Part shown: piece after piece, positions 1-50,953 of the stretch
How positions within the stretch are numbered: position 1 is the stretch's first letter
Layout of the letters: each line of letters begins with the position of its first letter
DNA from: Lepisosteus oculatus
Taxonomy: Eukaryota; Chordata; Actinopteri; Semionotiformes; Lepisosteidae
DNA: 64,000 bases
Direction: 5' to 3'
NCBI RefSeq assembly: GCF_040954835.1
Contig: NC_090706.1
Location: forward strand, 39,937,148 to 40,001,147
Translations under genes and position numbers: made by a program
The notes under the pieces: generated by a model
What the model was told of the DNA's origin: nothing
What the model saw: the letters and a program-made list of their open reading frames with translations, nothing else
Database searches by the model: none

Positions 1-1
1 C

Positions 2-169
2 CTGGACCACGAGGATGACGCTGCGGGAGAGGACCAGGTGCCGAGCGACTCCCCAGTTAGAGCCTTCACCCCCATCTCCGAGGCCAAGGACTGCCTTGTG
101 GACTTCAAACAGCAGTTTGCCTCCAGGACGGGCCAGAGGGCTGGGAAGAGAAGGAGGCTGAAGAGATAG
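2..169 (+). CDS. uimc1: C-terminal end of probable UIMC1 (RAP80), partial
   Basis: Only the last 55 codons and the TAG stop (167-169) are in the window. The reading frame opens at base 2. The peptide has an acidic start, then a stretch reading FTPISEAKDCLVDFKQQF, and ends in a very basic tail (GKRRRLKR). UIMC1/RAP80 binds K63-linked ubiquitin and recruits the BRCA1-A complex to DNA breaks in the nucleus. From memory, the RAP80 C-terminus has a similar CLVDFKKQ stretch followed by a basic tail. In human UIMC1 sits directly upstream of HK3 in the same orientation, as this fragment does relative to the hexokinase gene here. The ubiquitin-binding motifs and zinc finger would lie outside the window. 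The identification therefore rests on a short tail plus gene order; an unrelated nuclear protein with a basic tail remains possible. Confidence 0.6.
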   Translation: MDHEDDAAGEDQVPSDSPVRAFTPISEAKDCLVDFKQQFASRTGQRAGKRRRLKR

Positions 170-3596: not shown

Positions 3597-5593
3597 TCGC
3601 ATGTAGGACACAATCAGCCGGACGCGTGGGGTCTATCCAGTCTAAATGCTGTGCTGTCCTTCTCTCCCAGGCCCGTACCCTGACCTCCCAATGAGCAGCA
3701 CGGACAGCCATGGAGGCACAGGCGCTGCCCCGGTGAAGATTCCCAGTCTCCGCCAGGACGTCCCGGCTCGCGTGAGACCCCCTTCCGCCTCCCTCAGTAA
3801 AGTGCAGGACAGGGCAGCCCTGAGTCCAGCTCACAGAGCGCGGGGGCGAGGGGCAGAGCAGGGGCAGGTGTGAGCTGAAAGAACAAGCTCTGAGAGTCAT
3901 CCTGTCGCTCTGTCGTTCTGCACGATTCATTCACTTTAGACGTCGTTCGTTACAGTAATAATGAGAACCAAAGGTATATAGTGCCTTTCTCTGTGTGCAA
4001 AACAGAACACAGTCAGGGTAGTGGCTGATATGCTGTTAAGAAAGGGATTCCTGTGTTTACTGTACAAAAGCCCAGACTAAATTCAACCCCTTCCCAACGC
4101 CCAAGACACCTTATAGCAGTTGAAGTACTGGAGTGAGATGCTTCAGCCACAGATGAGTAAGACAGAATGATCGGCCTCCCCATTAATGAGCTGGGCTGAG
4201 CAGGGCAGGCACATGCAGGAGCTCCCAGCCACCGAGCAGAGCCCTCTGGGGAGGAGAGCTGGCACTGAGACCTCTGACAGCCAGCTGTGATCCACTCCCT
4301 GCTCTCTGGAAACACGTTTCTGATTTTCACAAGATCAACCTGGGGAGGATATCTCCTTACTCACCTAGGAAACACCTACTGTATGTTTTCCAGGTGAGCC
4401 GAGAGAAAGTCTGCTCTCTTATCTCGATCGGATTTGAGCTAGACGTTTTCTGATTTGAGATTTCAGCATTGTTGTGGTAAATAAATGCTGAGGGCAAAGA
4501 CGGTGGCTCCTGAGTGGACACCCACTGGTGAGTGGACTCGGGGGGGAGGTTCAGGCCAAATTTCACCAGCACTCTAATGAAAAAGATGGAAATTATTTTA
4601 GCCAGTTGCATTTATCAGAAAGGCTGGCTATGCTGAACTGACAGAATAGCTGCTACTGTAAATTCCCTGTGCAACAGGTTGAACAGCTGAAGCTGAAACA
4701 GAGTTTCAATTACAGACCTTTTCTGGCAACTATCTCACCTTTACAGCTGAGCTGTGCAGCCTGTTCTCCTGCAGGTCCCTGACAGCTCTTAGCAGTAATT
4801 AGTGGACTGCGGATACATAAGGAATTGCTTTTTATTTATATTCAAACCCCTTTTTGCTATTTTGGTACTACAGGAAAAACAAGGTTAGTGCCATGATTTG
4901 ATGTGTTGTACTGATATAAACACATTGATTGTGATGTTTCCTGATGTACTTATACTGGTGTGCTTTAAAGATTTTTTTAGAATTTTAGATTTAGTTTTAT
5001 AAATAACAAATTATTTGTTGTAGTGAAGAGGTTTTTTATTGTTTTTTATTCAGTGTGAGCATACGATATCTCATGGAATATATAACTGTGTGGAGCTCAG
5101 ATACAGTATATATAGAGTAGTGTAGAAAGGGACCGTTTCGGATTCTGGGTTTATCTGTCCTAGGATGTACTTTATGACGGGCTTATCAGGAAACTATAAT
5201 CACTTGTGTGAGAGCGCCACCTGCTGGACAAGCGTGGTCTGTCCAGGACAGGTTTAACTGCTTTGTTCTGAAAACCAGTACAGCTAGAGGGGATCGTTTT
5301 CAGTTGTTCTGTAGTTTCAGTTCTTTGGTCAGCCTGTGCGGCAGTGTGTTCGTGCTTTCTTAGGCCTGTTAAAACGTTCTGAAAGCAAAGAGAAGAAGGG
5401 GGCAGAAAGAAGGTGAAAAGAAACAACAATTTCAGGGTTAAAGAGCAAGATGAAGTACAGTTTAAAAACGAGGTGACCTTTGCAGGCAGTCTCCATACCC
5501 TCACAATGCAGCCACAGCACAGTGCAAGAGATAAATCATGGGTAAGTATTGAGACAGGCAAGATGATAAGAAAGATTGCAAACAGAAACACTG

Positions 5594-6466: not shown

Positions 6467-6944
6467 TTAAGAAAGAAATTACACATTTCTGTATGTGCAA
6501 GAGAGCTACCCTGTCAAACTGCACAGCAGTGTTTCTGAATATGACTTTGGTGTGAGACCACTCTGTGGAGTGTGATTAAAAGAATCCCAACTCACTTTCA
6601 CCTCCTCCCCACTAAGCTGGACAAATCTTCTTCTCCAGCACGTGTGCTCTAAAGTACAGGGAAGAATAGAATTTCGTTTTCCTAGTTTGAGCACAGCTTT
6701 GTCTTGTTTCTTCTGCTTCTTTTGAAGGTTGATAAGATCCTGACTTTGCACCAAAAATCTTGTGCTGCATCACTTCATCAGATCCTAACAATCCAGCCTT
6801 CAATCTGAAGACTGTCAGAGTCACGTCTGTGAAATGATAGCCTCGGTAGAGATCACGGAGAGTCGAGCCAGTCTGGTTCACCTGTATCGCAGATGTTGTC
6901 CTGCTATACTGGACGCTTGTCCTGATCCAGAAAGTCCCCTGCAG

Positions 6945-7107
6945 GTCGAGGAATGGCTGCAGCCCTTCAGACTCTCCTGGGAGAAGCTGCGGGACATCTC
7001 CAGCCGGCTGCTCAGGGACATGGAGAAGGGCCTGGACAAGCACAGCCACCGCGGAGCCCCAGTCAAGATGCTGCCCACGTTCGTGAGGTCCACTCCAGAC
7101 GGAACAG
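6945..7107 (+). CDS. hk3: hk3 exon 2 (163 nt)
   Basis: The acceptor CCCCTGCAG ends at 6944 and the donor GTGCAT follows 7107. It encodes [15 protein letters not shown] through [15 protein letters not shown], the small-domain start with the family signature [14 protein letters not shown]. It begins in phase 0, so the missing first exon must end in phase 0. Confidence 0.92.
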
Positions 7108-10100
7108 GTGCATAGAGATACAGCCGGGGTTTCAGCTGGGACAGCAGTGACTCGGGGGTCTGGAGGTTTTATCTGGAGATGGCGATGGGCGGCTGTGAGG
7201 TGCTTCAGTCGGTGAATGTGCTCTCTCACAGCGCAGGGCCCGGCTCACAGGCCTGAGCGACTGAGCGTGGTTCTTCATGAACCAAATTTCACAAATAAAT
7301 GAAAGCCGAGGTTTCTTCTCTTGGAGCTACTAACTTCTTCTACGGACTAGCTCCAAAAATCTTTTTTTTCAACTGAAAAGTCTTCCACGGATGAAGTCTC
7401 TCTCTGATACTGTTCCAACAGTCAGTTGCTTCCTTCTGCTCCACTCTTCTGCACAAAGAGAATCTTCCTTTGCTCATCCCGGTTTGGCTATGTTGGAAGT
7501 CTCCACTTCCTGGTTTTGTCTGTCACCTGACCAGTTGTCTTCCATCGATTGCTCAGGTGACTGAGGATGGCAGGTCATTCCCAACTGCCTTCTGGGGAAT
7601 GTGGTTTTAGACAAGAACCTCCACCCTGAGGTCCTCCTGCATGGGTGCTCAATGAACATGGGACAGCAATTAGCATTGACAGCCAGGGTTTCACACATTC
7701 ACAGGGCTAACAGTCCTGACCTCCATGAGTTTGTGTGCGCGCCCTCACTGACCCAGCGGGCCTCTCCTGTTTCCACAGAGTCGGGTGACTTCCTTGCGCT
7801 GGATTTGGGAGGGACCAACTTCCGAGTGCTGCACGTCCGAGTGGAGGAGACCATGAAGAAAGTGGTGAAGATGGAAAGCCAGACGTGTCCTGTACCTCAG
7901 GAGATCATGCTGGGCACAGGCACACAGGTCAGTTGTCTTCAGCCCAGGGTCCCCTGTGTGCTGTGACTCCAGGTCTGGAGCAGGCTCTGCGTCTGGCTGT
8001 GTAAAACCGTGGTGTTGTACAGAGTCCGGAATGAACGCTAGAGCCCTCTCTCCAGCAGCAGGAGGCAGTGTTCTTCAGCGCCTGTCCTGAAATCCACTGG
8101 AATTTCACCCTCGTCCACTCTCGCATATAAGCAGTCACAGCCGCGCAGCAGACATTCCCAATGCTGTGTTGTCTTTCTTTATTTCTTTCTAGCTGCTTAA
8201 CCCATTTAAAGGGGAACTGCAACGCTATTTTCATATTTTGGGGGTTAGAAAGAATCAGCATTGATGAGCGCATTTCAAACCGCAGTAACAATAAAATGTG
8301 CACAGTAATGTGTAAAACCTCAATTTTTCAGGACCAAATAGACTACATTTCCAGGTTTGCGCAGCGCCATGTTCTGTAATTCAGAGCGAGGCGGCATAAC
8401 TTCCAGTGACGTATGCGGACCTATGATGTTGTAAACAAGCAGGCTTGTAAAACCCATCTCTTTTAATCCAATAGAAAATATTGCTTTCAATTTCAAGATG
8501 GTTTTTTAATCTTCCAGCAGGGTAAAGCGCACTAAACACATTCCTCCACACACACACATCTCTCCCGGGTCAGTGTTGTTTTGTCGCTGTAAGCTGTATT
8601 TCCGCTATGGAGGCCTGACAGAACTGCCCTGTGTTTCTCGAACGGAACCGCACAGCTGTTCGACCACATCGCGGCCTGCCTGGCGGACTTCCTCGAGTCT
8701 CAGGGCATCAAGCACCAGGTCCTGCCACTGGGCTTCACCTTCTCCTTCCCCTGCACGCAGAAAGGAATTGACAAGGTGGGTCCCTCTACAGGCAGCAGGC
8801 AGCAGTGGAGGACGAGCCCTTTGACCGGAAAAGTTTGGTTTAGTTTTAAGCTGGATGGTCAAACATCAATATTATGGCCAGCAGCCATATCACCCTGCAA
8901 CTCACCACTGGCAGCCCACTGGAGGTGGGAACCCGGTCAGTACCTGGATGGGAGACTCCTGGGAAAGACTAAGGTTGCTGCTGGAAGAGGTGTTAGTGGA
9001 GCCAGCAGGGGGCGCTCACCCTGCAGTCTATGTGGGTCCTAATGCCCCAGTATAGTGACGGGGACACTGTACTGTAAACAGGCACTGTTCCTTCGGGTGA
9101 GACGTAAAACCGAGGTCCTCTGAAGTGGCTTCATTACTCTGCTCTCCTCCCCACTGATAGCTGGTGTGTGGGGAGCGTTCTGGCGCACTATGGCTGCCGT
9201 CGCATCATCCAGGTGGGGCTGCACATTGGTGGTGGTGGAGGGAATCCCCATTACCTGTAAAGCGCTTTGAGTGGAGTGTCCAGAAAACAGCTGTATAAAC
9301 AATTAATTATTATTGTAATGCATGTGACCAGTGTACAATAAGCTTTATTAAGAAAATATTTTTAATACAAACTTGTGCATCTGTAGGTATTGCATTGTAG
9401 TCTGAAATATGTTTCTGCTTTCTTGACTTTATATTGCTCCCCTGTGTGCTGTTGTAGACAGTTTTATGAGGAATTTTTAGTAGGGATTTAAAGTTGAAAC
9501 TAGCTCGTACGTGGAAAGATTTTAATACATAGGGCTAAATTACACTGTTGCTAAATTGAACATTATTATGATATATTTAAATATTCCTTTTTTTTATTTT
9601 GTTTTGAACAGTTAGCCTTGCATTCAAAAGTGTTTTTCATCGGTTCAATAAGGCTTGTGGGTTTCTAGAATGAGCCCTGCTGTTGATGTTTAATACCCTC
9701 ATTTCTTTCAAGAAGCAGCTGGATGAGAACCTCTGATCTGGAACCAAATGATCTAGATGAGCTGAGTGGCTCCTCTCATCTCTGACCTGCCCTGTGTCCT
9801 CAAACAGCCTCTCAAAGGTCTCTCTCCCTCTGCTGTTGCAGAGTTATTTGATTTGCTGGACCAAGGGCTTCAAATGCTCAGGAGTAGAGGGACAGGATGT
9901 GGCCAAACTGCTCAAAGACGCCATCCACAGGCGGGGGGTGAGTGAGAAGATCTCGGGCTGCTCTGAGCTGCTCAGAGCTACGAGCTGTACCTACAGTAAC
10001 TTCCTGTGTCTTAGACGACGGGGACGATGGCATATTTTATTTCTGACATACGATCGGAGAGCCTGGAAGCTTTTGCTGACTTTTAAAGCCTGCACATGTA

Positions 10101-13100
10101 GCAGGAGACCATTAAGGTACCAAAAAAAGATGTTGTATTTGTTTTTTAACTTAAATATAATTGTCTTAAGTCTCTTCGGAGCGTGAAAGCACAGCTCGGT
10201 CTTTTAGCCGTCCAGGTGAAAATGCATGAGCCTTGCTGAACCCCCCGTGGCTGTGCTTGCTCTCACTGGGCACTCGCATGACCTGCCTCTAGGCTCACTG
10301 GGCCTGACAGGATCAGGAGCCCACTGTGTTGGGCCACCGGAGGGAAGAAAGACTGCTTGAGCTGGACGTGTCTCAGAGTCCTGTCCCCTTCATGCTGGTT
10401 GGAATGGGGTTCTGTTTCACGGGGGGTTACAGTGGGACAGCGAGGGCCGGCGTGGGGGAGGCTCACTGTGACGCGGCCCCTGCTTCTCGGCCGTCTGCTC
10501 TCCCGCCAGGATTACGACATCGGTTCGGTGGCCATGGTCAACGACACGGTGGGGACGATGATGAGCTGCGGGTACCGAGACCAGAGCTGCGAGATCGGCA
10601 TGATCGTCGGTGAGACGCGGCGAAGCGAGATTCCCGCCGCAGCGAGGCGGAGAGCTGGATCACACCGGGTAAAGCGTTTCTGCCGCTGTTGCAGGAACCG
10701 GGACGAACGCGTGCTACATGGAGGACATGAAGAACGTGAAGAGGGTGGAGGGAGAGGATGGCCACATGTGCATAAATATGGAGTGGGGTGGCTTCGGGGA
10801 CGACGGGTCTCTGAGCGACGTCCAGACCGAATTTGACCTGGAGGTGGATCGCCGCTCCCTCAATCCTGGTCAGCACATGTGGGTGCCACCGAATTTCTTT
10901 CTTTCTTTTTCCAAACTTTTTATCTAGCGATGAAAGGGTTTACAAATAGAACATAACCAAAAAAAAACAGCATAGACATTTGCCTTCATCTTACATTTCT
11001 GTTACATTGTATACATGAAATGAACTGTTTACACAACGCCAGCAGGTATGGAGGGCCATACAAAAAAAAATTTGATAAGAAACACAACCAACAACAGAAA
11101 AATCCCCACATAAGTATCACTGCACATTTTCTCGTAAACTAGAATCAGGTCCCTGTAGGGAGATAAATTTAATCCATGTTTCCCAGTATTTGCTATACCT
11201 TTCTGCCTGCAATCTGAGAGAAAAATGTATTTTTTCCATTATATAGATCTCATCCACAACATTAACCCATTGTGCACGTGCTGGAGGTTCTTTTATAAGC
11301 CATATTCATGTTATTGCTTTTTTACTATCTGCTAGAAGTAAAGGATAGTATATATCTATCCTTTACTTCAATATCATGAAAGTCAACATTTCCCAAGTAT
11401 ATAACAGGAAATTCAAATGGTATATTCACATTTACTAAATTATTAAGAGTTATATGTATAGATTTCCAGTATTGGTGTATTTCTGGGCATGACCACAATA
11501 TGTGTGAATGAGTTGCATCTTGCTCCACATAATCTCCCACCAAATTTCTTTCTAACGGCCTCCTCAAGGGCCAGATTCCAGCGGGTCTTATTGGTCTCAT
11601 GGTGCCCTGAAGTTAAAAGACAAAACAGGATAACAGATCCACGATACAAAGGCTGTGACTTTAGCTGTATGACATAAATGTTTGAAACAGACTGAACTGC
11701 AGTGTAATTAGTTGCCCTGTGTCTGCAGTGTCATTTTTGTGAGAGTGACCCTGTGTGTTGTTCCTGTGAGGGTCAGTGACTCTGTGTGTCTGCAGTGTTG
11801 TTCCTGTGAGTGTCAGTGACTCTGTGTGTCTGCAGTGTTGTTCCTGTGAGTGTCAGTGACTCTGTGTGTCTGCAGTGTTGTTCCTGTGAGTGTCAGTGAC
11901 TCTGTGTGTCTGCAGTGTTGTTCCTGTGAGTGTCAGTGACTCTTTGTGTCTGCAGTGTTGTTCCTGTGAGGGTCAGTGACTCTGTGTGTCTGCAGTGTTG
12001 TTCCTGTGAGTGTCAGAGACTCTGTGTGTCTGCAGTGTTGTTCCTGTGAGTGTCAGTGACTCTGTGTGTCTGCAGTGTTGTTCCTGTGAGTGTCAGTGAC
12101 TCTGTGTGTCTGCAGTGTTGTTCCTGTGAGTGTCAGAGACTCTGTGTGTCTGCAGTGTTGTTCCTGTGAGGGTCAGTGACTGTGCTGCTGTGTTTGACTC
12201 GAGCAGGTTTGAAAAGATGATCAGTGGGATGTACCTTGGAGAGCTGGCCCGACTGGTTCTGATCAGACTGGCCCAGGAGAAGCTGCTGTTCGGGGGAGAG
12301 ATGTCTGAGGCCCTGCTCACTCCAGGCAAATTTGAAACGAAGCACATTTCTGAAATTGAGGAGTATGTGTGAAAGGAGCCCACTTACCTACACAGAACTG
12401 TAAACACTAGGCCTTGAGCAAGGACAAAAACAGTAGTACAAATGTGACCTGCTCTTCCACACTCTATTTGCTATTTCTTTGATTGACAACTCTAAAGAAG
12501 ATTTGAATCGAGCCAGAGTAAATCTTATCCATTAATTTTATTCATTGATTTGAATAAATGATATCCGTTGATTTTATCCATTAATTTTATAAAAATGTTC
12601 TGCCTCGCAAACTCAGAACATTTTTCAAAAATGTATTTTCCAGAGTTAAAAGCAAAATTCGAATTAATGAAACTGGTTCTTAGAGAATTGCTCTCTCACA
12701 AATAAATGTACAAAGATGAGCAGTATACAAATCTTGGCTCTCGTCTGTTCAATTATTGAAACATTCAGATCATTCCATATGTATATCGCAGTGTATGAAA
12801 GATCTCATTCATATCTCTGCAGACAGTGGGAAGAGCAGCAAGTACAAACTGGCTCCTCACTTCCTTTTACCTGTAAATGATACAACATGTCTGCAAGACC
12901 ACACACAGAATCCACAGTTCCTAAGCGCTGTCCCACATTTATCACCAAGTTTCCAGTTCGATTCGGACAATTCCACAACTCTACAGAGCAAAACTAGTTT
13001 AAAACTTGTTTTTATTATCTTGGAAGTTACTGTAGCTGCATTAAATGGATGTTATGAGAGACACTGTGCGACCTTACTACAGCATGTAGTATTATAATGT

Positions 13101-15149
13101 CTTCATGTTAGACTTGACACTGTTTTTGTCCTGTGCTCAGTGCTCTTGTCTCTTGCGGGCTGTACACGTTTTTTTAATTTTTTCAGTTGTTAGCAGAAAA
13201 CAGGATGAGGATATTTTGGTCCAAAATAACATTTTTTCCTGGCTGTGAAAAGGTGTGTCAGTGTGTCGTGACGGTTAGCGAGCTTTAAAACACTGGGGCC
13301 GGAGGCCTGGCCTGACGACGCCTCTTGTGCCTCTCCGCTGTGTGTGCTAGGGACCGCAATGGGCTGACTCGGGCCAGAGAGATCCTGGAAGACCTGGGGC
13401 TGCGTCCCACCGGGAAGGACTGTGGGATTGTGCGGCACGTGTGCAGCACTGTGTCCACGCGCTCCGCCCACCTCTGCGCCGCTGCCCTGGCAACCGTCGC
13501 CAACCGGATCCGTAGCAACCGCGGCCTGGACCATCTCCGCACCACGGTGGGGGTGGATGGCACCGTCTACAAAAAACACCCCAAGTAAGACTGTGAGGCA
13601 AGATCCGGTTTAACGTGAGGCATTATTAGAAGGGGCAGCTGTGGGGTGACCAGATTGTTCAAGTTCAAGTTCAAGTTTATTGCCAGTATACTCATATACA
13701 GGTATACGGTATAACAAAATGCTATTTAGCTAGCTCTCAGATGATACGTAGTACAAAAAAACAACAACAATACAATTGTATAATAAAAGAAGGACAGAGA
13801 CAACAGGCAGTGTGCAAAAAAACAAAAAGGTAACAGGTAATGTGCAAAAACACCATCACTGTGAGGTTCAGATCATAGGTGAGAGGTGAGGTGAGAGTGA
13901 GAGAGGCTGGGAGTTTAATAGTTTGATAGTGCGGGGGTAAAAACTGTCTCTGAGTCTGGTAGTCCGGGCCCGAATGCTCCGGTACCGTTTTCCAGATGGT
14001 AGAGGGTCATACAGTCTGCAGCTGGGGTGTGTGGGGTCTTTGATGATGCTTAGAGCTTTCCTTGAGCACTGTCTGTCATAAATGTCCTGTATAGATGGGA
14101 GGGCAACCCCAGTGATGGACTGGGCAGTTTTCACCACCCGCTGTAGGGCTTTGCGGTTCTGGACTTTGTCTTGTGAGTTCTTAGTGAGTTAACGTTGGTA
14201 AGTAGGGTGTTGGAGCTGTGGCTGTGCTTAAGGTTAGAGTTATCATTACATTCTAAGATCTGTGGAAACAATGTGACTTGCATGTGTTTGAACAGTAGCC
14301 AAAGATCACTTCCATCGTGCCTAGCCACTTGTTTTGCTTCGATAAGGAACTGTGAGACCCGGTCTTTTGCCTAATTCTGCAGCTGTCAGTAGAGAAAGTT
14401 AATAAAAACCGGTGATTATTGTTCTGATCAGTAATGTAGTTCACCACATTCCCTCAAATCATTCAGTAACGTTTCAATGTGTAAAAAGCTCTTTCTTACG
14501 TTTATTCTTTCAAAACCTGAAAGTCAACAAACAGCACTTCAGCAGGACATGGACTTGGAAATGTGTCCCCAGACATTAGGAACTGCCACGTGTCACCATC
14601 TGCATTACGTAAATGTTTGCAAAATGACCGTGAGCCTCCTTGACACAGAGGTGACCTGACACAACACCAGGCACAACACCAAGCAGACACGAACACCTCA
14701 TCATCTGGCAGCTCGGCCTTGTGCATGATGCTGCAGGTACAGATACAGAAGACTGTTGTTCACCCCAGGGCTGTAGAGATATCGGGGGGGGACAGCACAT
14801 TTTCTGACCTCATATGAGAGGATAGATGTGTGCTGTACAGGCCGTATTGTCCGTGTGCAGCACGCCGGAGCTAGGCCGCGGCTCTGGCCGCGCGGAGTCA
14901 CGGCGTGATGGGGGATTTGCGTCCAGCCCCGGAGCTGACGGCCGCGCCCCTGCCGCCCACAGGTTCAGCGAGCGCCTGCAGCAGGCCCTGCGGACTCTGG
15001 CCCCGCGGTGCCAGGTCTCCTTCCTGCTCTCGGAGGACGGCAGCGGTAAGGGAGCCGCCATGGTGACGGCGGTGGCGCAGCGCCTGGCCGGCCAGTCGCG
15101 GCTGCTGGACGACAGCGAGGAGGACACCGCGGCGGAGGGGCGGTGCTGA
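6945..15149 (+). CDS. hk3: Hexokinase-3-like, single hexokinase domain (multi-exon gene)
   Basis: Hexokinase phosphorylates glucose at C6 with ATP, the first step of glycolysis, in the cytosol. Coding exons join 6945-7107, 7779-7927, 8656-8775, 9842-9937, 10510-10609, 10695-10878, 12207-12362, 13351-13584 and 14963-15149. They keep one frame and encode 462 residues. The lengths 163/149/120/96/100/184/156/234 equal those of one half of vertebrate hexokinases. Visible motifs are LDLGGTNFR (phosphate binding), [30 protein letters not shown] with the catalytic Asp at 10543-10545, [20 protein letters not shown] and [10 protein letters not shown]. The stretches [17 protein letters not shown] and LCAAALA resemble the HK3 N-half, and the upstream uimc1-like neighbour matches the human HK3 locus. 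The gene stops at TGA 15147-15149, right where the linker to the second half should begin, and no C-half exons follow. The first coding exon was not found. Glucokinase is the other single-domain family member, but the sequence is closer to N-halves of 100-kDa hexokinases. Confidence 0.85.
7779..7927 (+). CDS. hk3: hk3 exon 3 (149 nt)
   Basis: The acceptor is TTTCCACAG and the donor is GTCAGT. It encodes [17 protein letters not shown], the phosphate/ATP-binding motif at 7799-7825, and ends with IMLGTGTQ. Confidence 0.95.
8656..8775 (+). CDS. hk3: hk3 exon 4 (120 nt)
   Basis: The acceptor is CGCACAG and the donor is GTGGGT. It encodes [15 protein letters not shown] through the hexokinase signature [11 protein letters not shown], which precedes glucose-contacting residues. 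Confidence 0.95.
8872..9316 (+). mobile_element. 5S rRNA-derived SINE (SINE3-like) in hk3 intron 4
   Basis: The head contains GCAGCCATATCACCCTGCAA and GGTCAGTACCTGGATGGGAG, which match 5S rRNA including the internal promoter C-box region. The body carries CCAGCAGGGGGCGCTCACCC, then GAGACGTAAAACCGAGGTCC. The 3' tail TGTAAAGCGCTTTGAGTGGA ends in an AATTATTATT run, typical of LINE-mobilised fish SINEs. This is the most complete of five copies in the window. Confidence 0.9.
9842..9937 (+). CDS. hk3: hk3 exon 5 (96 nt)
   Basis: The acceptor is GCTGTTGCAG and the donor is GTGAGT. It encodes [20 protein letters not shown] through AIHRRG. Lys and Gly residues of the WTKGF segment line the glucose site in this family. 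The [10 protein letters not shown] wording is close to the HK3 N-half. Confidence 0.95.
10510..10609 (+). CDS. hk3: hk3 exon 6 (100 nt), catalytic Asp
   Basis: The acceptor is CCGCCAG and the donor is GTGAGA. It encodes [18 protein letters not shown] then [15 protein letters not shown]. The Asp of VNDTVGTM at 10543-10545 corresponds to the catalytic base of hexokinases and is intact. Confidence 0.95.
10695..10878 (+). CDS. hk3: hk3 exon 7 (184 nt)
   Basis: The acceptor is CTGTTGCAG, only 85 bases after the previous exon. The donor GTGGGT at 10879 splits an ATG codon that is completed by the next exon. It encodes [34 protein letters not shown] and SLNPGQHM. The family usually has EWGAFGD, so Gly at the fourth position is a small deviation. 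The glutamates that contact glucose are present. Confidence 0.93.
10890..11690 (-). mobile_element. L1-type LINE 3' remnant in hk3 intron 7
   Basis: On the minus strand 11325-11600 encodes a peptide with [20 protein letters not shown] and [12 protein letters not shown], resembling the C-terminal cysteine/histidine region of L1/Tx1-clade ORF2 proteins. The minus-strand 3' side ends in A-rich sequence (T-rich on the + strand near 10895-10920). The ORF is interrupted and only this end is kept, so the copy is inactive. Confidence 0.65.
11714..12183. repeat. 40-bp minisatellite abutting hk3 exon 8
   Basis: About 11-12 direct copies of a 40-base unit of the form TTCCTGTGAGTGTCAGTGAC followed by TCTGTGTGTCTGCAGTGTTG. 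The first copies are degenerate and the inner ones almost identical, with a few shared variants (GGTCAG, GTCAGAGAC). The array ends about 24 bases before the exon 8 acceptor. Each unit contains GTGAGT and CTGCAG, like 5' and 3' splice signals. Confidence 0.95.
12207..12362 (+). CDS. hk3: hk3 exon 8 (156 nt)
   Basis: The acceptor is CTCGAGCAG and the donor is GTATGT. It encodes [40 protein letters not shown] and [17 protein letters not shown] is a strong hexokinase family motif. Confidence 0.95.
13351..13584 (+). CDS. hk3: hk3 exon 9 (234 nt)
   Basis: The acceptor is GTGTGCTAG and the donor is GTAAGA. It encodes [40 protein letters not shown] and [16 protein letters not shown]. The VGVDG loop contributes to ATP binding. 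DLGL, HVC and LCAAALA match the HK3 N-half as remembered. Confidence 0.95.
13645..14165 (-). mobile_element. Rex1/Babar-type (CR1 group) LINE remnant in hk3 intron 9
   Basis: The minus-strand frame 13868-14137 encodes [57 protein letters not shown] and [10 protein letters not shown]. This is the conserved C-terminal end of the reverse-transcriptase ORF of Rex1/Babar-like fish retrotransposons. A 3' UTR-like stretch (13660-13860) follows. The copy is 5'-truncated and dead. Confidence 0.75.
14963..15149 (+). CDS. hk3: hk3 terminal coding exon, stop after one domain
   Basis: The acceptor is CGCCCACAG. It encodes [40 protein letters not shown], then [20 protein letters not shown], Cys and a TGA stop. 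In 100-kDa hexokinases the homologous exon is longer (about 305 nt) and runs through a linker into the second half. Here it stops about 15 residues after the domain. The region is very GC-rich. Confidence 0.9.
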
Positions 15150-15894
15150 CCGCCGTCCTGGGACTCCTTCCTCCGCCCGGAGACCGGGAGCAGGGGGCAC
15201 CTCGAGCACGTGGTGGGAACCCCGCTTCAGAAGCTGGACCTCTTGTCTTCAGATAACGAACAGAATTAATATCCCCCCCCCCCTCCCCTTCCCAGTTGCG
15301 TGGGTACAGTCCTTTTTGGGGTGCAGCGATCTTTTCTTCTCCGTAGTTATTAATGTGTTCTACCCCCTCTATATTTATTGACACCCGCGCGTGGTATTCT
15401 GTGGCGACCTCTCAGGTCCCGCCCGCCGGTGACACTCCTGCTGCGTGGGCCCGCCCTGTGCGCTGCTGCAGGGAGCTCTTAGGCTTGAGCCACACGAGCG
15501 AGAGGAAACCATCGCTCTGATCTCTCTCTTCCTTCAGCCAAGGAACATGCAGGCCAGTAAGTAAGCCTGGGGAAGGGCTGCCAGCCTCCTGTTATGGTTT
15601 TGTGAAGAAACAGTGAAACCCGGTCATTTGTTTTAAATAATTCAGTGAACGGCTTCTTTGACCATCGACAGTGAGACTGGGGTTATCGCAGTAGATCTTC
15701 CAGTTTGCCAGTGGCGGAGTTGGTGTTGAAGATACACGTAATGCTAAAAACAGTATTTTGAACATAGACGTGGGGTTTAAGAATCCTTTGACTCCCTGTC
15801 TGTCCTTCTAGCACTCCGACCGGACTGGAGCGTGGAACAGTATTCCTTTACAGAGTACTGGGATTTAAGACAAGGCACATGTTGCTGTAGTTTT

Positions 15895-16085
15895 CATATC
15901 CAAGCCACACTTGTCTGTCCCAGGAATTTTACCCCCAGCCATTCTTGTCCCTGCTCACACAGCTGGGTGGGCCGGAGCCCCTGGGACACAGGACCTCACT
16001 CAAGGCACAACAGCAGAGTCTACAGCTGGGACTCGAACCCACAACCCACCAGTCATGAGAACAGAGATGTCTAGTTAACTATGTC
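15895..16085 (-). mobile_element. tRNA-derived SINE, minus strand
   Basis: The plus strand shows CTCAAGGCACAACAGCAGAG then GGGACTCGAACCCACAACCC. On the minus strand the latter is GGGTTGTGGGTTCGAGTCCC, a B-box. It resembles other tRNA-headed copies at 22.85 kb and 35.5 kb. Confidence 0.6.
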
Positions 16086-17670
16086 ACCCTAAACCCCCTC
16101 CATTTGCTGAAGAGTTTCAAAATTTACCATTTTTAGGTCTATTGACTTCTTGCAGTGCAACATACAGTAATCATCTGCTGAGTACTGAATTTTGTCTTAG
16201 TAAATGAGAGCAGTGCATGCAGAATTTATACCGAGAAATTGTTCATTGGAAAATAATGGCACTTGAAACAGATTTCTCCAATGTCAGGAGCTGTGTTTTG
16301 AATTCAGGCTTTAGACCTAACTGAAGAACGTGAGATTGTGAAGTCAGGCTAAAAAATGAATACGATTTTTTTATAATTAAATTGATAATGTGTTAAAAAC
16401 AAATTATGCTTAGTGATACTTGGTTTCACATCTGTGGACAGTTTGTAATGCAAAATGATAGGCAGTACATACATAATGTATGTGTAACAGTACTGCATAT
16501 TCTCTACATGTATTCAATATAAGTACATAACGTGTTGATTGAAATAAGCAATCTGTGAGACATCTCCCTGGTGCGAAGTACTGAATTGTATGAATCAGAC
16601 TGCTGCACAGCTATAATAATATAATCTCAGAGTCAGCCAGCATGGGAGAGGTTCGGTTTCATGGTAGAAGATATTCCTTGATTTTTTTCCCTCTCTGTTC
16701 TGAGCAGGCCATTCATTATTTTGTGTAATTCTCCGATATGACATTCCTATTCCAAAAGGCGCAAGACGATCTTGTTTGTAAATTTAAATTTAAGTTTAAT
16801 TCAGTTTGTAAAAGCTGTATCTGAATCGTCATTTTAAAGGTGGCTCTGACCTTAGTGGAGGACAGAGATAATGGATTTCCAGGGCCAGAGTTTTGCAGGC
16901 TTTATGAGCTGAGCTAGACAGAGACGACTTAACTAGTCATCAGACTGAGTTCATCCAAGCACCTGAGAGATTAATTATATCACTGACATCATCTTGAATG
17001 GTCTTGAATAGCTTTAAATTAATTTAAACAAATGCATCAAATTTATGGTAATAATACAGTTATACATACCTAAATATTGTATGCTGTCAATATACTGTAA
17101 AAGGGGCCAAAGTTGTTTCTAATGCTGAAGCACGTATTGAAAAGCACAGTGTTTAAATATTGCAATTTTTAATACATAATACTGGTTGCGCCATGTGAAA
17201 AATCTTATTTTGACACATAATGGAATAAATCTTACTGGCATCGGCTTTGAATACCTTCCAAAATATGAATGCAGATGAGATTTTTTTTTTAAACTCCCTA
17301 TTTTCAATAGACATCATTTAAAACGTAAGAATTTGTCTGTAACAAGTAATAAGATAATATTTGAAAATTGGACTGTGGACAAGCAGGAGGAAATGTATGA
17401 GAAGCGACTTCATTGCTCTGCAAGAGTTTGTTTCAGAACGACGTAAGCTTAGCTTAGTTCTGCTTTTAAGAAACATAAAAAAGAGTTTTAGCTGTTACAT
17501 GCCAAATCATGCAAGTGCTGCACAACAGTCTTCTGAAAATGTGTTGAAATTATATTTCTGTAAGTACAGTATAGTTTAAAGTATTACATTTTGATAAGTT
17601 TATAATACAACGTTTTGTTTCTTATTTATGGCTGACTGTGTTCATTGTGCTGGTGGTCTAATGGAATTTA

Positions 17671-17706
17671 AATAAAACCTGCAACAAAATAAATATGAGA
17701 AATAAA
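17671..17706 (+). terminator. Cluster of three AATAAA signals
   Basis: AATAAA occurs at 17671, 17688 and 17701, followed by a T/GT-rich stretch. It could end a long hk3 3' UTR of about 2.5 kb or be incidental in AT-rich DNA. Confidence 0.3.
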
Positions 17707-18039
17707 AGTTGTACTTTACTCTCTATGCATTGTTTTGAAAGCAAAAAATCTGAAAGCTTGAAAACACCAAGTCCACACCAAAGGAAAAAAGGTCCACACT
17801 CTCAAGTACGTTTATTCTCATGCACCTTATGCTCTGGATTTTTGTGTGGTTGTCATTAGCAATGAGCCTGAATAAGTGAATTGAAATAATGTTGATGGTA
17901 ATCAGAGGCATTTTAACCCTTACGGTGCAGTGCTTTTGAATTGCACATGTAGTGAATTACAGAGATCCAATAACGACAGCGGCTCAACAAGAGGCTTGAC
18001 ACATTGTAACATCATTGCTGGACAAGGAATCAGAGTGCT

Positions 18040-18365
18040 GTGAAAAAGAACATAAAAACATAAGGGATTTTTGAAGTAAGAGGAAGCCTTTTGGCCCTTC
18101 TGGACATTTAGAAGTACCTTATTGATCCCAGGATCTCATCTAACCATTTCATGAAAGACATCACCATATCGGCTTCAACAACACGGCCATGTAGCTTGTT
18201 CCCTACCCCCACCACCCTCTGGGTAAAGAAGTGTAATAATAACCATTTTCTTGTGTTTAGATGCACTTCCACGTAGTTTCCACTTCTGTCCACTGGTCCT
18301 TGTTTCACTGTTGAGTCTGAAGTCTACTGGAATGGCACTGTCAGTCTCTTTAATGATCTTAAAGG
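18040..18365 (+). mobile_element. MITE-like DNA element, 5' portion
   Basis: Begins with ACATAAGGGATTTTTGAAGT and AGAGGAAGCCTTTTGGCCC, an eroded form of the end seen at 62.67 kb. The interior includes CTAACCATTTCATGAAAGAC and CGGCTTCAACAACACGGCC, also seen in altered form at 47.0 kb. A 5S SINE begins directly at its right edge. Confidence 0.5.
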
Positions 18366-18847
18366 CAGCAGCCATGTCATCCTGCAACTCACTGAAGCTC
18401 AGCAGGTGTGAGCTTGGTCAGTACCTGGATGGGAGACCTCCTGGGACAAAAACGAAGGTAGAGGAGTTAGTGGGGCCAGCAGGGGTCACTCACCCTGTGG
18501 TCTATGTGGGTCCTAATACTGTATGGGGACACTATACTGTAACAAAAAAAGGCCCCGTCCTTCAGATGAGACGTAAAACCGAGGTCCTGACTCTCTGTGG
18601 TCACTAAAAATCCCAGGGCATCTCTCGAAAAGAGTAGAGGTGTTACCCAGGGGTTCTGGCCAGCTCTCCTCCCCACTGATAGCTGATTTGTGCTGAGTGT
18701 TCTGGCGCACTATGGCTGCCGTCGCATCATCCAGGTGGGGCTGCACACTGGTGGTGGTGGAGGGGATCCCCATTACCTGTAAAGCGCTTTGAGTGGAGTG
18801 TCCAGAAAAGCGCTATATAAGTGTAAGCAGTTATTATTATTATTATT

Positions 18848-18883
<36 letters not shown>
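18366..18883 (+). mobile_element. 5S rRNA-derived SINE with long AT-trinucleotide tail
   Basis: The 5S-like head has AGCAGCCATGTCATCCTGCAA and TCAGTACCTGGATGGGAGAC. The body matches the copy at 8.9 kb (GACGTAAAACCGAGGTCC, GCTGCCGTCGCATCATCCAG) and the tail is GTAAAGCGCTTTGAGTGGAG. The tail passes into (TTA)n at 18831 and then switches phase to (TAA)n up to 18883, a potential hairpin. Confidence 0.88.
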
Positions 18884-18884
<1 letters not shown>

Positions 18885-20764
18885 CCTTGTTGTGCTCTCT
18901 GTTCAAATCCTGCCTGTCAGAATGCTTGTGGTTGCTCATCACTATACTCATTCCTAACCAGCATTATCTAGTCTGTAGCAAAGTGACCACAATTGTACAG
19001 AATATTCTTAATGAGGCTTAAGCTGATTTTCACAGCACACTTGATTTAAATTCTACACTTTTGACTGTGTCCTCACAATTGCTTGCCTTTTAATTGCTTT
19101 ACTAAATTGTTTGGATGATGTAAACAATGTGACTCAGTGTTTCCCATTTTGTGTTTATAGTTTATGTTTTTACTACCTGCATGCAAAACCCTCTATTTGT
19201 CTACATAAAACATCATCTGCCAGGTGTTTTTTGCAATCTAGATTTTTTTACTAAATCTTTTTTAAATTAATTTTCTGCTAATTAAACCTCCATAACATGA
19301 GCATTCATCCCCTTGTCTCCCCTTCAATAAATTATTAAATTATTGTCATCCCTTTAATAATTTAATAAATTTTCTATTAAACAGTGCTCAAATGGAATGC
19401 ACACATTTCCACGAATAAAATACTTTCCCCACAGTAAAATGCACTTCACCTGTGTTGATTGTTTTCTCTTGAAGTATAAAATACACTTTTTTATTAAATT
19501 GTATTATTTAATAATCATTTTATTATTGTTGTGCTAAATATCAAGCACACCAAAGACAAATGTCTCAGTAAAACTGAAACTGAACTAAAAGTTTGACATT
19601 TTGTTCTTTGTGGCCAACTCTCAATTTTGTTAAAATCTGGCTGGAAAAATGAGAATGAATACGATACACGAGTTGAAAGGAAATGATTAGTGTTTTTACA
19701 ATACCAAAAGAGAAGCTTAATTGGCTCCCCCTAGCGGAGAAAAAAAAACAACAAAACCGGTGCAACAAAACTAGCGAAATCAATTCTAAAGAACTAGTAC
19801 AGCATTAAATGTTCAATATATGTGATCAAAGAGCAATCATCAAGATAATAAAGTTAATGGCGTTAATTGAATTGTTTTTCGTAAAAACAATACGTTTAAT
19901 TTATGTATATTCGTATGCGTAAAACTAAAATTGCGTATCCAGACAGTTTTAAACCATTGTGCACAATTGTGTAGTTTGGGTAATTGTGTGATCTTCCACT
20001 GCAGTACACTGTGGTAGGGCCACAGGGAGTGTCTATACGTTATGGCCTAAGAAAAATGCACAAAAATTACACAAACGCTTATCTGTGTTCCAGAGTACAG
20101 TGTATTTTTTTTTAAAGTTTAACAGACTAAATCTAAACATTTTAATCTAAATTCGTACAGGGCACCGACTGTAAACACGTGCTCAGGTCGATGTTGATAT
20201 ATCCGACGCCTTGTCTACTTCAGTAATTTTTTTGTTGTTGTTCCCGTTTTCCTTTAAAATATACTCTGATCGGATCGATTGGCTGCAAACTCCTAGGGGG
20301 GCAGCTAATATAGTGGATCGACACCGTCTACAATTCTGAAGCCTTTTTTTAAAAAAAAAAACAACAACAACAGCCAACAATTAATATCAACTTCATCGTC
20401 ACCACACGCGTCCAGAGAGCAATCTTTTGCAATTCCTCATCTCCCAACACCGCTGGTGTAAGCGAGCCGAGCGATCAATTACACAATTCCAGCCTTACAA
20501 AACACTCCCCGAGAACAGTCTGTCTCTTTTATTTTATTTTTATTTTTAACCCAAAACATTTTAATACACGTTTCGCTCTCGGTGTGAACAGCGGGATCGA
20601 ATTAGCGATCGCCAAATTCTGGATAAATCGCCCCCCCAAAAAAAGTTTGGCTACGCATGCTCGCTCGTATGAAAACGCCAGACCTGCAAAACTGCAATTT
20701 CATATTCCGTCAAACGTGAACTTCATGTTTTGCAGTTTTCGGCTTGGGGGGGGGGAGTGGAGTC

Positions 20765-20784
20765 GGGACGGGGGAGTGGGTGGG
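20765..20784 (+). promoter_or_regulatory. G-quadruplex motif upstream of arid6
   Basis: Four G-tracts of three or more with short loops (GGGACGGGGGAGTGGGTGGG) lie about 250 bases upstream of the arid6 start codons, within a G-run-rich segment 20748-20799. Such motifs are common in vertebrate promoters. No TATA box was clearly placed. Confidence 0.35.
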
Positions 20785-21030
20785 TGGTGTTGGTGGCTGA
20801 AATTATAGCTGCATTTCTAACTGCGGAGTGAAAAAAAAAAAACTTTTAATACATATTTATGCGCCCCGGCATTTCCACGAAGTTGTACTTGAGCGTAGTT
20901 GAGTTTTGGCCACACCTAGATCCTGTCCTATTTTAACAAAAAGAGAAGCCTTTTTCAGTACCATTTGTTTGTGCGTCCCGGTGAGGACCCGGCTGTGTAA
21001 CTCGATAGGAGCCAGCGGAGGGGGGGGACT

Positions 21031-21072
21031 ATGAGGGAATGCGGAGGAGCAATGGAGCACAATACGATCCAG
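21031..21072 (+). CDS. arid6: arid6 exon 1 (7 or 14 codons)
   Basis: ATG at 21052 gives MEHNTIQ then donor GTAAAG. This aligns with the ARID5B first exon (MEPNSLQ) and joins in phase 0 to exon 2 WLGAPC (ARID5B WVGSPC). An in-frame ATG at 21031 would add MRECGGA. I prefer 21052 for its homology and its G at -3 and +4. The first intron is about 5.6 kb. Confidence 0.8.
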
Positions 21073-24000
21073 GTAAAGTCAAATCCCCCGGTTTATAGCG
21101 CTGAGAAAATAAATCAGGGGCGCTTCTGGAAACAAAGACCCGGGTTCGGATTCTGGAATTCGAGCCCGTTCGGGTCCGGGACCCGGCTCGTTGTCGGTCG
21201 CGGCCGGCGTCTCCCGGTCTCTAGGAACAAAAACCAAAGTTTGAAGGATTGGATTCGCCTGTTTCGAGATTGATTGTTCGGGGGGCACTTCTGAAATCTT
21301 TAAACTTCGCTTTGAATGCTGAGTGGCAACTTTGTGTGTGTGTTTTTTTTTCTCTCTCCCCCTTCTGCCCTGTGCTGTTTCTTTTTATATAAAAATGGGG
21401 GCTTTTTTTTTTCTCTCGCAAGCCGCTGACATAAGCGAGTAATAATTTTGTAACGCGATGAAACGCGGCGGTGTTTTTTTTAATTACAATATCAAAAATG
21501 TCGATATTTGTTCTGTCAATGATTAATAATCCCTTTTGTGTGTGCCGTGTCGAGTTTGCTCCTCGTTTTCCCAACCCCCCACACTAAGACATGAAAGAAG
21601 TTTTCTTTGAAATTATTTTTAAAAAAGCTTTTTTTGTGTGTGTGTGTGTTAAGCTCTATTTTCTCGGGCATCTGTAAATAATCAGAGAAACCCCGATGTA
21701 AACCAGATTGTTTTGTTTCGGACCGAGTTCGGTTTTAGTTTTAATTTCGGGTGTTTTTTTGACCGATCCTTTATAGATAAACCGGAGCGTGAACGTTGGA
21801 ATTATCGATATCAATTTTACTTAAAAATTAAAAACCCTGCTGGCATAACTAGGTGGAGCATTTGATTTATTACATAAATGGCCGGCTTTTTTCTCTCGAG
21901 TTTTTAATTTACTCTCAAACTGTACTTCCCTTGTACAGTTGAAGGAATTTGAAGGAATGCTGGTGTTGAGGAATAAATTACTGTACTTTGTACTTGCATT
22001 TTTTTTAGATTACCGGATTAGCACTTCTCCTTAAACAATTCAGTTCGGTTTTTTTTTGTAGCGAATTAATGTATTTTCAGCGTTTTTCCCCCACTTGGAG
22101 AACACGTAATTTGGCTATGAAAAAAACGTCATTGTATCGTTTTTAATGTGAAAACGACTAACAAAGAATATGGTCGACCAAGGGACGGAAGCATTTGAAA
22201 AATTAAACAATTAATAATACCGTAGAGATATTATGTATGCTAGTGGAAAGTTTTTCGGATATTTATTTAATGATACACTTTGAAGGATGATGGGAATTCC
22301 CAAGGTCACTATAGGCGCTTGAAGTATGAATTTATTCCATATCCTTGACTTCCTCTCAGCTAATTTTTGGAGCCATTACACATCAGGCGCTGACGAGTCC
22401 AGGTGTAGCTGTTTTGTTTAAAACCCAGATATTCAAACAGTTACATAAACGGAAGTGTATTTTCGCAGTTTCGTGGGAGAACTGAATATCACGCCGTATG
22501 TGCGAGTGAAATATGAATAGAGACACACATCTGAGGGGGGAAAAAATACGGTTTCGTATTTTGGCCCTCGGACAGAAATGAAAGTAGGAAATATATATAT
22601 ATACCGGCTATAAAAATGTGAAATGGTCACGTGGAATCATTTGTTTCGCGTCGTTCTGTCTGATCAATATGTCTCTTTTTATTTATTGTTTGCATTTGAA
22701 AACTTGAATGTTAAAAGGTTCCGTAGCTGTAAAGTGAGTGTTATTTTCTAATTGCCGTTTTGGCAATACAGTAATATGGCAAATGGCACATTTTGGTAAT
22801 ATCCAGAATGTCTTCTGTTCGTCCTCTCTTATCCACACGGGGTATATTAGAGGAGCAGTGTGTCTTGCTCAAGGCACACCAGCAGTGTCTCACCTGGGAT
22901 TTAAACCTGTAACCTCCCTGTTACAGTTTTGAGCCCAGACCCCTGCCCACTGGCCACACTGCCTCCCCTGTATATACCTCAGAAGGATGGAGTCACTGTG
23001 TGCTGTTTGTTTCAACTCTATAGCTGTATTCCTCAGCTCCACTGAACAGCGTTATAGGAGTACTGGTCTTGAACCAGACTGTGAAATATAATACTGTATG
23101 TAATTATTACCTTTTGACGTGGAACGCCTGTGGTAGGCAGGCGATATGTGATGGTGAAAAATTCACTTTTACGCCTGTGTAAATACTACACCCCAGGACT
23201 CCGGCCTTAATCCTGGGGAGCCCCAGTTCAGTGCATTTCGTAGATCACCCTAGATTGTGGTTTGCTAATGGGGTTGGGGGAAAAGTGCATGTTGTTAATC
23301 AATTGATTCACTAAATTAGTTGCTGGTTTCGAGCAGGTCTGTGTCTCCGCGAGAAGCTGATAGTGATGGGAGTTTGAGCTCTGTTGCACTCAGTGCAGAA
23401 GAAGAGCGATAAAGTTCAGTCTTGACTCTAATTGAGGAGTAGCATATATTGGAAAACAGAATCAGGAAACATTTGTAGGCAACTGTGAGATTTCATCTGT
23501 GTTTTGAAAGAGACAGGGGTTGAATGTTTCTCCTGGTTCTGCTGGTCCCAGTGTCTTGGGTGAGTTCTGGTAGTTAACCCTTAAGTGACGTTAAAATCTG
23601 AAGGACTGAAATGTTTTGGGCTTTTAAAGAGTGCAGAGTTTTATTCTTGCTGTTAAGTGCGTTTCAAAGCTGTAACGTTTGTTTGGCTGCTGAAAAGGGA
23701 TGCTGCCAATTAGGCGAGCTGTTGATGGATTCAAGGGTTTCAGCTAAGGGTCACAGACCCAGCCAATCTTATGCTCCTGTGGAGATAGAGGGGAGCGAGT
23801 GTGGGGTGTACTTGGTAAATACAAATGGCAGTGTGTTGGATGTGGGACTCGGGAGTTCACAGGCACGCGGGGCTGAAACTGGCCTAACGATGAGTTTATA
23901 CACGGTTTCAGACAAATCAGTATAACACTCTCTATTACCAAACATGCTGGAGACCCCCAGTTCAGCACATTTCGCAGGTCACCCTAAATCACAAGTTTCT

Positions 24001-44395: not shown

Positions 44396-44570
44396 ATAAT
44401 GACAATTCCTTACACTTTTATAGCGCTTTTCTGGACACTCCACTCAAAGCGCTTCACAGCTAGTGAGGATCCCCTCCACCAGCACCAGTGTGCAGCACCC
44501 ACCTGCCTCACACTGCTGGGCTCCAGTGGGCTCCCAGCGTGAGTTGCAGGGTAATATACAGTAGGTGCTG
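44396..44570 (-). mobile_element. 5S-type SINE tail, minus strand
   Basis: The plus strand reads CTTTTATAGCGCTTTTCTGG then CACTCCACTCAAAGCGCTTC, the reverse complement of the shared SINE tail, followed by a diverged body (CCCCTCCACCAGCACCAGTG). Confidence 0.75.
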
Positions 44571-50870: not shown

Positions 50871-50953
50871 ATGGCTGTGAATCTCAGCAAGAATCGACTG
50901 GCCCTGTTAACAGCCTACCAGGATGTTATCAGCGAGACTTCGTCCACCGACTG
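50871..50953 (+). CDS. dbnl: Drebrin-like protein, first coding exon (partial gene)
   Basis: The exon starts after CCATTACAG (exon from 50835, 36 bases of 5' UTR). ATG at 50871 has an AAAATGG context. It encodes MAVNLSKNRLALLTAYQDVI then SETSSTDW, with donor GTAAGG splitting the Trp codon. This is the start of the ADF-homology domain of drebrin/drebrin-like (Abp1) proteins, cytoplasmic actin-filament binders. DBNL also links actin to endocytosis through a C-terminal SH3 domain, which lies outside the window. MAVNLSKN favours DBNL (human MAANLSRN), while RLALLTAYQDVI also recalls drebrin DBN1. Human DBN1 lies near HK3 on 5q35 and DBNL near GCK on 7p13, so synteny does not decide. No second exon is seen before the window end. 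Confidence 0.7.

Follow-up and report, generated by a model that had tools for sequence, protein, structure and literature searches.

A single-domain hexokinase gene beside UIMC1 in Lepisosteus oculatus, probably an HK3 orthologue that has lost its C-half

Glucokinase (GCK) is the one familiar 50-kDa hexokinase of vertebrates. The 100-kDa enzymes join two such domains. PMC2972215 describes HK2 as active in both halves and HK3 in its C-half only, and reports that the HK3 N-half is soluble when expressed alone and the C-half alone aggregates. PMC1508162 reports that a search for zebrafish HK3 in an early database did not find it, and considers HK4 the oldest family member. Here we describe a hexokinase gene in a 64,000-nucleotide stretch of the Lepisosteus oculatus genome (contig NC_090706.1, positions 39,937,148 to 40,001,147 of the forward strand), referred to below as the window. 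The gene encodes one hexokinase domain and then stops; it is real, intact and unusual. We think it likely that it is an HK3 orthologue that has lost its whole C-half, leaving a single N-half-type domain of ~51-54 kDa, whose most likely role is phosphorylation of glucose with ATP by the usual mechanism.

The balance of the evidence tilts towards a history in which HK3 of a ray-finned lineage, once two-domain, became an active enzyme made of the N-half alone, and so a reciprocal counterpart of glucokinase. If this is true, vertebrates have a second 50-kDa hexokinase, made from the other half of the 100-kDa enzyme. It would also point to a catalytic N-half in the ancestral HK3, with inactivation at a later stage in the mammalian line, and it would allow the reported control of N-half activity by the length of helix alpha-13 to be tested in a natural case. 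No single-domain HK3 was described in the titles and abstract beginnings of the literature matches listed, a scope outside which most subscription papers fell.

Nine exons and the downstream sequence

Spliced alignment with the N-half of human HK2 (HK2-N) placed nine in-frame hexokinase exons in the window at 6945-15149 on the + strand, as follows.

6945..7107, +, hexokinase exon, 163 nt (VEEWLQPF...TPDGT)
7779..7927, +, hexokinase exon, 149 nt (LDLGGTNFR)
8656..8775, +, hexokinase exon, 120 nt
9842..9937, +, hexokinase exon, 96 nt
10510..10609, +, hexokinase exon, 100 nt (VNDTVG, with the catalytic Asp)
10695..10878, +, hexokinase exon, 184 nt
12207..12362, +, hexokinase exon, 156 nt
13351..13584, +, hexokinase exon, 234 nt
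14963..15149, +, last hexokinase exon, 187 nt ([11 protein letters not shown] and the linker-helix part [22 protein letters not shown])

The eight introns are all GT-AG and have phases 1,0,0,0,1,2,2,2. Joined and read from 6945, the exons encode 462 amino acids (51.1 kDa) with no frameshift or internal stop before the TGA at 15147-15149. Pfam matched Hexokinase_1 once and Hexokinase_2 once in this protein, and the NCBIfam search returned 0 families. A preliminary description of this DNA, made from the sequence alone, had read the nine exons as exactly one hexokinase domain followed by a stop, and the spliced alignment and open frame agree with it. The same description called the exon sizes an N-half set. 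The first eight lengths and all phases do equal those of the N-half of HK2 in the same genome, but the plan is common to this genome's hexokinase C-halves and nearly so to GCK, and we therefore rejected exon sizes as proof of N-half identity. The final exon is 187 nt long vs 305 nt in the same genome's HK2, where it continues into the C-half.

The place where a C-half would lie was searched directly.

15150..21000, +, region expected to contain a C-half; no match, with scores from tblastn and spliced alignment at chance level

When hexokinase halves (those of human HK2 and of this genome's own HK2) were compared with the window and with the adjoining upstream stretch L044, the best tblastn match outside the gene had an E-value of 0.18. 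Three C-halves aligned to 15150-21000 gave spliced scores of 87.8-92.4, vs means of 90.8-93.3 for random controls (12 sequences per C-half with the same dinucleotide make-up) and 1471 for a positive control. Upstream of the gene, two C-halves scored under the random maximum. Translation of 15100-16000 in all three forward frames showed no recognisable continuation of the linker, nor did spliced alignment. A borderline match at 15792-15887 (E 7.5) was rejected, as its query spans an exon border and the spliced score of the region including it is no better than random. These results uphold the earlier statement that no C-half exon is visible in the 6 kb after the gene or elsewhere in the window.

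The search was extended to the genome (one assembly, 1.2 Gb in 813 contigs). All 67 matches to the window protein fell within five hexokinase loci: HK2, the two genes of a tandem, GCK and the window gene. With the human HK3 C-half as query (E <=1), 72 of 73 matches fell within these loci, and the remaining one, on C1, is at chance level (E 0.59). Such a search scores only the best candidates, so the absence is strong and not absolute.

Two routes to a single-domain gene had been proposed, loss of the C-half or evolution of an early stop. The first fits better, because no linker or C-half relic was recognised downstream; a premature stop by itself is less probable, except one of great age. A deletion that began inside the linker exon and ended beyond the old C-half would fit the absence of recognisable relics.

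Descent of the gene

The assignment to HK3 is carried by synteny rather than by sequence, and begins with the gene directly upstream on the same strand.

1..169, +, last coding exon at the 3' end of UIMC1 (RAP80); stop TAG at 167-169, with the frame running from L044 (open reading frame 9083-9313)

Phmmer matched RAP80 (9sqy) to the C-terminal stretch with an E-value of 5.2e-6 and to a zinc-finger exon in L044 with one of 6.9e-5. Human HK3 adjoins UIMC1 in the same order and orientation; the earlier placement of the gene at the HK3 locus is thus supported, and the gene is probably HK3 by descent.

The other loci provide a wider setting. A two-domain HK2 lies on chromosome C2 at 69.1 Mb (69.11-69.12 Mb), and a tandem of two-domain genes lies on C4 at 30.83-30.88 Mb. 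One tandem copy groups with human HK1; the second is putatively HKDC1-like. Single-domain GCK is on C2 at 70.4 Mb (70.43 Mb). The single copy of each hexokinase type suggests that this lineage did not undergo the teleost genome duplication. As separate observations, GCK lies only ~1.3 Mb from HK2, which bears on whether GCK began beside a two-domain gene, and the HKDC1-like gene (C4:30.829-30.842 Mb, stretches L039 and L040) has altered N-half motifs (LDVGGSKFKV, Ser at the T168 equivalent, SECGSGKG) and a C-half that retains the checked positions; to judge from these residues, its N-half may be another that is losing catalysis.

An ARID5-like gene follows the hexokinase gene in the window.

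21031..38917, +, ARID5-like gene with an ARID domain (PF01388); outer limits and exon joins set by eye

The joined ARID exons match PF01388 (E 1.2e-24), with ARID5B as the best solved relative (E 8.9e-41); single short ARID5 exons and the N-terminal ARID5 stretch had no Pfam match. An ARID5 query found nine matches in the genome: five in the window gene on C11, two on C4 (23.24-23.29 Mb, ~7.6 Mb from the hexokinase tandem), one on C2 (71.87 Mb, ~2.7 Mb from HK2) and one on C3 (69.67 Mb), the last two each a single ARID exon. Three of the four chromosomes with ARID5-like exons (C2, C4 and C11) thus also bear hexokinase genes. This would be expected of an ohnologue set to which HK1, HK2 and HK3 belong, and the arrangement looks like a paralogon of the two early vertebrate genome duplications (2R). 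An ARID5 member seems to be missing from the HK3 locus at human 5q35.

In an unrooted tree of 15 rows, the N-halves and the window gene were split from the C-halves and GCK at 99/96, and the window gene paired with the human HK3 N-half (HK3-N) at 82/80; that human row is a single sequence, fast-evolving, on a long branch and of odd composition. With a Schistosoma hexokinase as outgroup, the window gene stayed on the N-half side (97/96) and sister to human HK3-N (84/79). Removal of the HK3-N row left it on the N-side (98/95 unrooted, 94/95 rooted), outside the five other N-halves (100/98). Profile hidden Markov models scored the window protein at 703.8 bits for the N-half, 661.4 for the C-half and 579.4 for GCK, and among the 15 other rows the closest to HK3-N was the window gene (50.9% identity), followed by the human HK3 C-half (HK3-C; 49.4%). 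The approximately unbiased (AU) test rejected grouping of the window gene with GCK (p 0.014), with the C-halves (0.016) and with HK3-C (0.0005). It also rejected grouping with HK2-N (0.0009) and with the genome's own HK2-N alone (4.6e-6), so that both trees named beforehand as contrary to an HK3 reading, one with GCK and one with a partial HK2 copy, fail. A placement of the window gene plus HK3-N with the outgroup (p 0.077) and a grouping of the window gene with the other N-halves to which HK3-N does not belong (0.161 unrooted, 0.168 rooted) were not rejected. The sequence thus gives fair, not conclusive, support for N-half affinity. By architecture the gene is outside the 100-kDa class, and by descent it is not GCK.

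Several results weigh against loss of a C-half from HK3, and two more, which concern activity, are given with the active site below. The AU test retained a grouping of the window gene with the C-halves and GCK together (p 0.207 unrooted, 0.061 rooted, 0.158 rooted without HK3-N) and a position with the Schistosoma outgroup (0.076 with HK3-N, 0.16 without). Support for the HK3-N pairing is 82-84%, the pairing is not starred, and it depends on one fast-evolving human sequence. Signature residues were rejected as proof of that pairing, because GCK has as many in common with the window gene: 7 (of 64 unique to GCK) vs 6 shared with HK3-N (of 140 unique to it). At 50 columns diagnostic for the five N-halves vs the C-halves and GCK, the window protein has the N state at 19, the C state at 19 and another residue at 12; with GCK left out, the counts over 77 columns are 37, 19 and 21. 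The position of GCK also loses its resolution with the outgroup, so the picture of the window gene as a mirror image of glucokinase rests on the unrooted tree.

These same results bear on an alternative history in which the gene never had a C-half and is an old single-domain hexokinase, predating the N/C fusion, that was kept at this locus. It would explain why the window gene joins the tree midway, with the remaining N-halves on one side and the C-halves and GCK on the other, why the outermost position beside the Schistosoma enzyme is retained, and why the diagnostic columns divide evenly. We consider it unlikely, since the gene adjoins UIMC1 as human HK3 does and lies on a chromosome of the hexokinase-ARID5 set, its N-half placement is at 97/96, and the tail of its protein extends some way beyond the end of the compared C-halves. 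Mammalian HK3, moreover, is described with two halves (PMC2972215). Loss of the C-half from HK3 would be the simplest history, because the two-domain plan is found in mammalian HK3 and in the HK1 and HK2 of both human and this genome.

Active site and linker helix

The preliminary description had noted intact catalytic motifs, and the translation contains both of them, [15 protein letters not shown] and SEDGSGKG. Among 28 checked positions that surround the catalytic Asp and the two substrates, glucose and ATP, the window protein keeps the GCK residue at 26; the two deviating residues, M for K296 and T for S411, are both those of the human HK1, HK2 and HK3 C-halves. Human HK3-N has the GCK residue at 18 of the 28.

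In HK2, an isolated N-half also depends on its C-terminal helix. The N-domain 1-462 is reported as inactive, with activity returning as helix alpha-13 is lengthened and highest with the full helix (1-479) (PMC5803496); D447, S449 and K451 are reported as essential for activity of this half, and replacement of T216 or D220 by Ala as raising it (PMC7949118). The window protein retains the equivalents of D447, S449, K451, R462 and R468 and ends at the HK2-equivalent position 483, with a tail past ~470 that has no visible homology to the linker. In the alignment it has Ser, Arg and Gly at the equivalents of T216, D220 and D202. On these residues, the stand-alone protein appears to have most of the parts known to be needed by an isolated N-half, and a tail as long as the full helix required by human HK2-N adds to the case that it is probably catalytically active. 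We propose that the HK3 N-half active site, which has been lost in mammals, was still functional at the time of C-half loss. The protein would also have retained a helix long enough for an N-half to act by itself, and it differs from HK2 at two of the positions by which the HK2 N-half is restrained.

The two points concerning activity are as follows. The R468-D202 salt bridge of HK2, stressed in PMC5803496, is impossible here with Gly at 202; PMC7949118 reports that D202A and R468A raise activity, and the two papers thus differ over the benefit of this bridge. The HK1 N-half, although similar in its active-site residues, is reported to lack activity (PMC5803496), so such residues by themselves are no proof of activity. 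The latter case would also suit a different outcome, in which the HK3 N-half was kept as a non-enzymatic protein with a regulatory, sugar-binding or cell-protective role; the mammalian HK3 N-half is inactive (PMC2972215), and non-glycolytic roles of HK3 in myeloid cells are reported (PMC9091226). We find this quite improbable: dispensable catalysis would predict drift at catalytic and ligand residues, and at the 28 checked positions the protein has the residues of GCK or of active C-halves, in contrast to human HK3-N.

It is very unlikely that a C-half is present and was missed through mis-assembly or through trans- or long-range splicing. Such an error is conceivable in a single assembly of 813 contigs, read as genomic DNA alone with a search that scores the best candidates only, but the window contains 0 N, ~6 kb of continuous sequence separates the hexokinase stop from the next gene, no linker continuation was recognised in 15100-16000, and the searches of the 1.2-Gb genome gave no unassigned C-half exon. 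That the gene is a decaying pseudogene, or an incomplete copy of HK2 of tandem or dispersed origin, is hardly credible: identity is highest to HK2-N (62.0% own, 62.7% human) and the window branch is longer than that of the genome's own HK2-N, but the AU test rejects both HK2-N groupings, the introns are kept, the 462 codons are free of frameshifts and stops, and differences from the own HK2-N are concentrated at third codon positions (121, 91 and 206 at the three positions of 446 codons).

The 5' end, neighbouring features and known hexokinases

The nine exons stood as described, except that the first has no clear start codon of its own, and no certain start codon occurs within the nine. An acceptor-like CTGCAG immediately 5' of the first exon scores 2.1 (splice-site scores are from weight matrices). 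Because of this site, and because the 32-residue N-terminus of mammalian HK3 is encoded by a separate exon 1b (PMC2972215), a short upstream coding exon probably precedes 6945. Two candidate starts were considered.

3671..3771, +, tentative first coding exon; ATG at 3691, 27 codons, phase 0 donor (acceptor 11.7, donor 4.3)
6837..6944, +, alternative in-frame extension of the first hexokinase exon; ATG at 6837, frame read directly

For the ATG at 3691, two alternative donors score above 4.3, and candidates with an acceptor score of at least 9 occurred in 3 of 14 control stretches (overlapping, on both strands), so 3671-3771 was not upheld as an established first exon. The extension from 6837 has 36 codons, a length that may stay open by chance, and neither start is established. 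A hydrophobic N-terminal binding peptide of the kind found in the mitochondria-binding HK1 and HK2 would be sought in this first coding exon.

Beyond the ARID5-like gene, one further neighbour was recognised.

50871..50953, +, first coding exon of drebrin or a drebrin-like gene; limits set by eye

Phmmer gave two matches at E <=10 for this exon, drebrin (E 0.0062) and drebrin-like (E 0.012). A dispersed repeat, SINE-like by eye, has copies at 8879-9298, 18360-18830, 31919-32150, 44409-44505 and 26994-27226, on both strands and 74-93% identical to the 18360 copy; Rfam had 0 matches in the window. The intron just 5' of the exon at 12207 holds a 40-bp minisatellite (11755-12181; 10.7 copies, 97% matches).

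Set beside known hexokinases, the window gene resembles mammalian HK3 in its UIMC1 neighbour, in having the HK3 N-half as its best tree partner (82-84% support) and, probably, in an N-terminus that has its own exon ahead of those for the domain. Mammalian HK3 has two fused halves with an active C-half, whereas the window gene has one half; and at 10 of the 28 checked positions human HK3-N departs from GCK, whereas the active-site residues of the window gene are intact. The N-half of HK2 shares 62-63% identity, intact motifs and the linker-helix residues with the window protein, and is reported as active when expressed alone with the full helix (PMC5803496). Unlike the window protein, it is fused to an active C-half, and it has T216 and D220 where the window protein has Ser and Arg. 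GCK and the window gene both encode one 50-kDa domain, have an almost identical exon plan and agree in their catalytic residues; in contrast, GCK sides with the C-halves in the unrooted tree (99/96) and is a separate gene in this genome. The two would thus mirror each other, one 50-kDa enzyme nearer the C-halves and one nearer the N-halves.

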